This document shows, piece after piece, positions 41,400-41,937 of a stretch of 55,132 nucleotides of DNA. Below the pieces are notes generated by a model. That model was not told where the DNA came from, did not search any database, and worked only from the letters and a program-made list of their open reading frames with translations. Both the position numbers and the translations under genes were made by a program. The DNA lies in IMG/VR virus record IMGVR_UViG_3300043427_002441, positions 1 to 55,132 of that record. One strand, given 5' to 3'. Each line of letters opens with the position of its first letter. The first letter of the stretch is position 1. The DNA is from a virus.

Positions 41400-41428
41400 A
41401 TTTTACATAAAAAAAGGGGGGAAGTCAA
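41400..41428 (-). promoter_or_regulatory. sigma70-type promoter nested in a terminator
   Basis: Minus strand: TTGACT (41423-41428), 17-bp spacer, TAAAAT (41400-41405). The -35 is in the terminator loop, and the spacer consists of the terminator's C-run and T-run. It drives the unit that includes thyX, phoH and gp33. Confidence 0.7.
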
Positions 41429-41435
41429 TCCCCCC
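41408..41435 (-). terminator. rho-independent terminator
   Basis: Minus strand GGGGGG (41430-41435), eight-base loop, CCCCCC (41416-41421), then eight T. It ends the riboswitch-controlled peptide genes eight bases after the stop codon at 41443. Confidence 0.9.
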
Positions 41436-41442
41436 TGGTTTA

Positions 41443-41544
41443 TTAAGCAACTTGTGGTTGTTTTGCCATATTAATTTGTGCAATATGGAGAAGTTTTTCT
41501 TTCTTTGCTTTTTTCTTAAGATAACGAACGAAGTAAGTATTCAT
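41443..41544 (-). CDS. basic micropeptide (33 aa)
   Basis: Reads MNTYFVRYLKKKAKKEKLLH, then IAQINMAKQPQVA. A strongly basic amphipathic helix with seven Lys in its first 17 residues. GAGGTGG precedes the ATG, and ATGA overlap with the upstream stop indicates coupling. It is the second and last gene of the transcript controlled by the NtcA/glutamine leader, ending at the terminator. It could bind RNA or an acidic host protein; no family known. Confidence 0.65.
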   Translation of the reverse strand: MNTYFVRYLKKKAKKEKLLHIAQINMAKQPQVA

Positions 41545-41699
41545 TTTGCCACCTCGCTATTATTGCAAGGACGGTATGCTAATCCTCTATATGTATTTTG
41601 AGGATGAGCAGGGGCATGAGTCCTGTTATACCAAGAAACATACTCTTTCTTTGCATCTTCGGTGTCGTATGAGCACCCTCTATAAACAACTTTTGACAT
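41541..41699 (-). CDS. riboswitch-controlled DUF4278-like peptide (52 aa)
   Basis: Reads MSKVVYRGCSYDTEDAKKEY, then VSWYNRTHAPAHPQNTYRGL, AYRPCNN. The duplicated 'YRG-x-x-Y' motif (residues 6-11 and 37-42) recalls the cyanobacterial DUF4278 family. A strong AAGGAGA lies nine bases before the ATG. It is the first ORF after a glutamine riboswitch of the downstream-peptide class, whose defining feature in cyanobacteria and their phages is a short ORF of this size. It is therefore probably made or shut off in response to glutamine. Confidence 0.8.
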   Translation of the reverse strand: MSKVVYRGCSYDTEDAKKEYVSWYNRTHAPAHPQNTYRGLAYRPCNNSEVAK

Positions 41700-41730
41700 T
41701 AGGTTTTCTCCTTAGTTTTTTAGGTTAAAG

Positions 41731-41830
41731 AGCGTTCCTTCAGTCGGCTTTTGCGTTCGCTATTTGCGAATAGCGAATGAACGATCCGTTCCGAGTCGGC
41801 TTACTTCCGTCCCATATGGGATGAACGTTA
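41731..41830 (-). promoter_or_regulatory. glutamine riboswitch (downstream-peptide / glnA class)
   Basis: On the minus strand the leader reads CGTTCATCCC, a short hairpin over a TCCCATATGGGA palindrome, then the conserved GGACGGAAGTA block, a variable arm with TTCGCTATT/AATAGCGAA, and the 3' block CCGACTGAAGGAACGC. CGTTC (41823-41827) closes with GAACG (41733-41737) as P1. GGACGGAAGTA and GAAGGAACGC are the hallmarks of the cyanobacterial glutamine aptamers. It lies 31 bp before the peptide start codon, starts at the expected transcription start, and likely controls translation of the 52-codon gene. Confidence 0.85.
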
Positions 41831-41835
41831 GGGGA

Positions 41836-41865
41836 ATTATACCCCTAGTCAAGGTATATAGTCAA
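41836..41865 (-). promoter_or_regulatory. sigma70-type promoter of the riboswitch transcript
   Basis: Minus strand: TTGACT (41860-41865), 18-bp spacer, TATAAT (41836-41841). The predicted start near 41829 coincides with the 5' edge of the riboswitch. Confidence 0.75.
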
Positions 41866-41872
41866 ATAATTT

Positions 41873-41888
41873 TGTAACATATGTTACA
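41873..41888 (-). promoter_or_regulatory. NtcA box TGTA-N8-TACA
   Basis: TGTAACATATGTTACA is a perfect 16-bp palindrome and an exact GTA-N8-TAC match to the site of NtcA, the cyanobacterial 2-oxoglutarate-sensing activator. Its centre is about 51 bp upstream of the predicted start and just upstream of the -35, further than the classical -41.5 position. Confidence 0.7.
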
Positions 41889-41910: not shown

Positions 41911-41937
41911 AAAAAAATACCCGAAAATTTTTCCGGG
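41911..41937 (-). terminator. rho-independent terminator
   Basis: Minus strand CCCGGAAAAATTTTCGGG hairpin (41920-41937) followed by TA and seven T. It ends the gene at 41949-42296 and isolates the NtcA-regulated leader. Confidence 0.85.

Follow-up and report, generated by a model that had tools for sequence, protein, structure and literature searches.

The closest described counterpart of the locus examined here is gifB of Synechocystis and its kin, which, according to the accessible part of a review (PMC6316151), combines repression by NtcA, a glutamine riboswitch and a DUF4278 product. The same part of that review places the repressor NtcA boxes of gifA and gifB at -30.5 and -7.5, and describes glutamine riboswitches as activated by glutamine and linked mainly to DUF4278 genes. 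Since gifB already joins these three elements, the two-sensor principle is known from the host; a phage version was not found in the literature searched, which covered the primary work on the host genes only partly.

On the phage side, Sullivan et al. (2010; PMC3037559, accessible sections) described the same GTAN8TAC site in T4-like cyanomyoviruses, at 1-16 per genome, and proposed that cyanophages exploit active NtcA. The main text of that study does not use the word riboswitch; the link to a riboswitch cassette and the 13-nt spacing to a TANATA element come from the present analysis. In the psbA promoter of S-PM2, too, sigma70 elements overlap those for gp55 and the 5'-UTR contains a hairpin; unlike the phage unit reported here, that promoter has no NtcA box or riboswitch described for it in the available part of the report (PMC5931967).

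Layout of the promoter and riboswitch cassette

We analysed a virus record of 55,132 bases (the window), probably a fragment, whose close DNA relatives at this locus are T4-like cyanophages by DNA comparison. The locus comprises the following features.

41873..41888, no strand given: NtcA-type box TGTAACATATGTTACA, with the GTAN8TAC core at 41874-41887; read from the letters and kept in relatives
41855..41860, minus strand: TATATA, the late-type TANATA element, beginning exactly 13 nt past the box core (33-nt match 41855-41887)
41860..41865, minus strand: sigma70 -35 hexamer TTGACT, sharing one base with TATATA
41836..41841, minus strand: sigma70 -10 hexamer TATAAT, from a promoter scan
41829..41847, minus strand: palindrome with arms TAGGGG / CCCCTA and the -10 between them, from arm covariation among phages
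41787..41829, minus strand: first glnA-type glutamine aptamer (28.8 bits; Rfam cut-off 35)
41729..41785, minus strand: second glnA-type glutamine aptamer, RF01739 (35.4 bits; Rfam cut-off 35)
41541..41699, minus strand: ORF of a 52-aa peptide with two YRG motifs, DUF4278-like (21.6 bits; Pfam cut-off 25.3)
41443..41544, minus strand: ORF of a 33-aa peptide, overlapping the 52-aa ORF by 4 nt, without a convincing family match
41415..41436, minus strand: intrinsic terminator closing the two-peptide unit, from a terminator scan
41911..41937, minus strand: terminator-like hairpin, CCCGGAAAAATTTTCGGG followed by a T-rich stretch, closing the upstream gene; read from the letters

Along the minus strand, the hairpin of the upstream gene is followed by the box, the overlapping TTGACT and TATATA, TATAAT, the two aptamers, the 52-aa and 33-aa ORFs, and the terminator. 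That hairpin is absent from the minus-strand list of the terminator scan, and the Rfam leader match lying over it is weak and below cut-off. The sigma70-like promoter (TTGACT, 18-nt spacer, TATAAT) matches 11 of 12 consensus bases, and its expected start, at about 41829, coincides with the edge of the first aptamer. An earlier note on this DNA had described an exact GTA-N8-TAC NtcA site just upstream of a sigma70 promoter starting at the riboswitch edge, and both parts of that description hold; the single riboswitch of the note proved to be two tandem aptamers. The downstream aptamer passes the Rfam gathering score and the upstream one fails it, its core being kept in relatives despite the sub-cut-off score.

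All the components of the gifB type occur in the window (NtcA-type box, glutamine aptamer and DUF4278-like peptide), with what would be the same two sensors, and the same aptamer family and type of product, as in gifB and its kin, but the position of the box differs and the peptide scores below the Pfam cut-off. Host boxes of this type mostly overlie the core promoter at 9-15 nt from the aptamer, whereas phage boxes mostly lie 24-48 nt before it and are tied to TANATA (among the matches listed). Unlike gifB, the phage also has tandem aptamers and a second promoter.

The 52-aa peptide shares its two YRG motifs with the 33-aa host peptides encoded behind type 2 riboswitches. Its score against DUF4278 (PF14105) is below cut-off, as are those of the other relatives tested apart from the peptides of P-TIM68 (26.0) and P-SSM2 (29.0); both host peptides tested pass. 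The phage product is too short for a whole IF17 (149 aa, according to the accessible part of PMC7760959), and a family search with the 33-aa peptide returned no convincing match.

The aptamers of related phages frequently enclose small ORFs. Of 60 scorable related loci, 43 (L130, L132 and L128 among them) have an aptamer 2 of 166-229 nt, and 41 of these 43 long inserts are ORFs of about 50 to 65 codons (both among the matches listed). The nested frames start with an ATG after CGTTCATCC and mostly stop within the conserved 3' core (..GACTGAAGGAACG). Loci with a long aptamer 1 (e.g. L207, L135) contain an ORF in 25 of 25 non-redundant cases among the matches listed. The P2 stem that encloses a nested ORF is still paired (0.895 vs 0.736 for the null, whose maximum was 0.802 in 1000 rounds), and some of these ORFs are annotated as hypothetical protein (T4-GC 430).

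Conservation of the NtcA-type box

Within the window, GTAN8TAC occurs 12 times against 8.45 expected, TGTAN8TACA once against 1.22, and TGTAACN4GTTACA only here (1 against 0.00). The bare core is thus at chance level in the window alone, and its significance rests on relatives. We considered 139 sources (at least 120 IMG/VR contigs with a cyanophage-type tandem aptamer, 18 annotated phage loci and the window), which yielded 105 usable rows and, after removal of rows at least 80% alike, 88 non-redundant loci. Thirty-four rows were left out of the 105: 29 with the first CGTTC too far upstream, four that were too short (L176, L182, L201, L221) and one with a pattern mismatch (L121).

GTAN8TAC was present in 53 of the 88 cyanophage promoters among the matches listed, compared with 4.97±2.14 of 88 (maximum 11) over 200 rounds of shuffling. 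The N8 spacing was preferred, GTA inverted repeats with spacers of 3-7 and 9-12 nt each occurring in 2-7 of the 88 (among the matches listed). The search for the same tandem layout in other cyanophages, proposed in the earlier note, thus returned a conserved partner of the riboswitch, and the loss of the palindrome in related phages, which that note had named as evidence against the site, was not what we found. The exact box is missing from 35 of the 88 loci among the matches listed, and is therefore not essential. From the 29 loci set aside, 28 were recovered, 25 of them non-redundant, and in 21 of these 25 a box lies at a distance of over 15 nt from the aptamer.

The profile of the box in relatives is T-GTA-[AT]-C-A-N-A-N3-TAC-A. 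Because its interior is little more complementary than the shuffled null, the box is better read as a protein site than as an RNA stem, and a hairpin or terminator reading of it was ruled out. In two boxless cyanophage promoters, L177 and L225, TTGACT is directly preceded by another kind of inverted repeat, TTCGTGTTGATACGAA and TCGTGTTGATACGA, perhaps the site of another regulator. Three phage contigs (L072, L101, L119) carry a GTAAC..GTTAC-type inverted repeat between the late-type element and the aptamer.

Loci with the same aptamer in genomes were taken from one genome scan (among the matches listed) and were classed as cyanobacterial or not by record title. On that basis, a box lies within 100 nt of the aptamer in 26 of 37 non-redundant cyanobacterial loci, and in 22 of the 37 it overlies the core promoter at 9-15 nt from the aptamer; none of 64 non-cyanobacterial loci has a GTAN8TAC box. 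Phage loci retrieved with another aptamer pattern, from a mixture of hosts, have the box in 10 of 91 cases among the matches listed. The cyanobacterial layout (L282-L393) is likely to represent a general arrangement for NtcA repression extending beyond Synechocystis gifB.

Type 2 aptamers of the marine picocyanobacterial type (L418-L447) have GTAN8TAC 5-6 nt upstream in 7 of 7 non-redundant loci (from the best 30 loci). These boxes are GTAGC..GCTAC-like, with a similar one in P-SSM4 (L136), and because most of them are perfect inverted repeats, an RNA hairpin is as possible there as an NtcA site.

A search of 15 phage records and of the window for the HTH_Crp_2 domain was negative. A phage-encoded Crp-type regulator was rejected on this evidence, which makes host NtcA the likely binder: with the presence of NtcA in the host assumed from the cyanophage relatives, host NtcA is the simplest reader of the GTAN8TAC site.

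Spacing of the box relative to two overlapping promoters

To locate the box relative to the late-type element, a TANATA anchor was picked blind to the box, which was possible in 84 of the 88 loci. The gap from the end of the exact box to TANATA is 13 nt in 41 of these 84, and all other gaps together account for seven (12 nt in four; 8, 14 and 17 nt in one each), all among the matches listed. Among the 25 recovered loci the gap is 13 nt in 16, 21 nt in three and 9 nt in one. The distance to the sigma70 elements varies more widely among the matches listed: in 51 boxed loci, the gap to the -10 is 31 nt in 35, 26 nt in six and 25 nt in two, and the gap to the -35 is 8 nt in 32 and 2-3 nt in seven. 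Four of the six loci with a 26-nt gap retain TANATA at 13 nt. The 13-nt gap is also retained in short promoters that lack a sigma70 pair (including L128 and L269), and among six short promoters of the other aptamer set, whose box lies 24-25 nt upstream of the aptamer, TANATA lies at 13 nt in five (among the matches listed).

The box and TANATA thus appear to shift together, and TTGACT and TATAAT to form a second such unit. Given the fixed 13 nt to TANATA and the variable distance to the sigma70 elements, the box probably belongs to the overlapping late-type promoter, with its centre near -31.5. This is probably a new geometry, in which a box of the host-factor type keeps a constant distance of 13 nt from a phage promoter element of the late type; shared descent may add to the fixed spacing, since all loci are homologous.

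In the window, the box lies 32 nt from TATAAT and 13 nt from TATATA. Class II NtcA activator sites lie about 22 nt before the -10, and canonical class II activation was rejected on spacing. The earlier note had placed the box about 10 bp further upstream than classical activation sites, a figure that holds for the sigma70 promoter (centre of the box at about -51.5, against the classical -41.5); that promoter, however, is probably not the main partner of the box.

The late-type element was compared with TATAAATA; the late consensus of S-PM2 is described as highly similar to that of T4 in the accessible part of a review (PMC2988020). CTAAATA, the form found in many relatives, lies upstream of 61 of 1078 ORFs against 4 in coding DNA, and ATAAATA upstream of 71 against 5. 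The window has ACTATATA, found upstream of 0 of the 1078 ORFs, with TATATA in place of the consensus TAAATA. The ratio of TATATA to TAAATA was 24:12 in boxed loci and 11:22 in boxless ones (p=0.008, or 0.0037 under a slightly different selection; among the matches listed), a link that weakened between close pairs (10:4, p=0.18).

A general cyanophage class of 'middle promoter' was considered and rejected. Across 19 records, the 13-nt gap occurs in 10 of 13 riboswitch-linked GTAN8TAC..TAWATA sites and in 2 of 28 sites elsewhere, so this spacing is not favoured away from the riboswitch. The labels were assigned by coordinate; among the linked sites, W13 lies on the opposite strand, and one overlapping duplicate row was omitted. 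Near-spacing sites elsewhere in P-SSM7 and P-SSM2 (gap 14) have no gene in common. Two box-13-TATATA sites away from a riboswitch, in S-SSM7 (220999-221031, L153) and AG-345-L05 (73975-74007, L151), have similar linkers; the S-SSM7 site lies before a DUF680 gene and pstS.

The palindrome around the sigma70 -10 recurs in relatives. Stems flanking TATAAT average 6.19 pairs, compared with 4.31±0.16 (maximum 4.78, 500 rounds) when right halves are exchanged. TATAAT sits in the loop, and the arms covary, with 47 different arm pairs among 81 loci (among the matches listed). In 46 of 72 loci among the matches listed, the distance from TANATA to the start of the palindrome is 7-8 nt, which puts that start at about the expected start of a late transcript, which fits a TANATA transcript with a 5' hairpin without proving it.

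Candidate mechanisms and the sign of regulation

The reading we prefer, tentatively and with a little less than even confidence, is that of a predicted host-NtcA site within a compact phage control unit, bound near -31.5, where NtcA would repress at high 2-oxoglutarate (2OG). The unit would run from GTAN8TAC through exactly 13 nt to TANATA (a T4-type late element), followed by a short hairpin, the pair of glutamine aptamers and the genes of one or two small proteins, with a host-type sigma70 promoter overlaid on the same stretch. Host NtcA would bind the box and, from about -31.5, affect transcription from TANATA; glutamine on the aptamers would afterwards favour expression of the peptide. With NtcA repressing when 2OG is high (nitrogen short) and a glutamine switch behind it, the peptide would be allowed only in nitrogen-sufficient cells, as for gifB.

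The sign of regulation is unsettled, and our slight lean towards repression comes close to a coin-flip. Repression would accord with the host precedent, with a coherent two-sensor logic, with the overlap of the box and the late-type core, and with the way host boxes cover the core promoter (22 of 37 among the matches listed). Activation would be better suited to the rigid spacing than repression, and the weaker TATATA core of boxed loci would suit dependence on an activator, an argument that fades in close pairs.

T4 middle promoters consist of a MotA box at about -30 and a -10 element, a -35 not being required. By analogy, NtcA may activate the TANATA promoter from -31.5, with high 2OG turning it on and glutamine licensing expression, as an AND gate; the upstream box would then occupy the same position, at about -30, with a palindromic NtcA-like box and a late-type TANATA core in place of the T4 elements. 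We regard this as possible but somewhat doubtful. The concentration of gaps at 13 nt (41 of 84, against seven for all others, among the matches listed), the tie between box and weaker core (24:12 vs 11:22) and the short promoters built of box and TANATA without a sigma70 pair all speak for it, as does the 2010 proposal that active NtcA is exploited (PMC3037559, accessible sections). It fares less well with the close pairs, where the TATATA link is not significant (10:4, p=0.18), and it would set the two sensors in opposition. We know of no CRP-family activation from -31.5 with sigma70, and the host counterpart is NtcA-repressed (PMC6316151, accessible part). The fuller proposition, that host NtcA has been recruited by cyanophages to activate, in the manner of MotA and at a fixed 13 nt from TANATA, a late-type promoter whose RNA carries tandem aptamers, giving a 2-oxoglutarate AND glutamine decision, seems to us rather unlikely.

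Another dimeric regulator, of phage or host, might bind the palindrome in place of NtcA. The different inverted repeats in L177 and L225 (TTCGT..ACGAA, TCGT..ACGA) would sit well with such a protein, but the strict N8 spacing, the T-GTA-WCA..TAC-A profile and the restriction of the site with riboswitch to cyanobacteria (26 of 37 vs 0 of 64, among the matches listed) make it improbable; the domain search, which covered the HTH_Crp_2 fold, was negative in the 15 phage records and the window.

Class I-like activation of the sigma70 promoter from about -51, which the earlier note had offered as one option, is more improbable still. A sigma70-like -10 does follow at 31-33 nt in 38 of 51 boxed loci, but the gaps of 26 nt (six) and 25 nt (two) among those 51 are half a helical turn off, and this change of helical phase disfavours the option; TANATA stays at 12-14 nt in seven of these eight loci (13 in four), all among the matches listed. 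The short loci lack a sigma70 pair altogether, and CRP-type sites around -50 activate poorly. That the palindrome reflects chance or an RNA hairpin, as the chance-level core and perfect palindrome of the window copy might suggest, is extremely improbable, and we count it as already refuted by the shuffles (53 of 88 vs 5.0±2.1, among the matches listed), the low interior complementarity and the fixed spacing.

Together, the results support the combination of NtcA and a riboswitch that the earlier note had proposed, in that the pairing is conserved, and revise its promoter partner, its class I option and its number of aptamers. A likely site for NtcA, the central nitrogen regulator of the host, often stands at a fixed spot before the glutamine riboswitch in cyanophages, where one small gene probably reads two host nitrogen signals, as judged from comparative sequence. 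The comparison across genomes puts to the test the suggestion, made in 2010, that the NtcA system of the host is exploited by cyanophages. At a single gene, a lytic phage may be reading two nitrogen signals of its host, and a site of the type bound by a host transcription factor is joined at a set distance to a promoter element of the phage late type. The locus also offers one small promoter that can be cloned and on which exploitation of NtcA is testable. If the MotA-like reading were true, the phage would compute a 2-oxoglutarate AND glutamine decision for small proteins that, in many relatives, are encoded within the aptamer loops.
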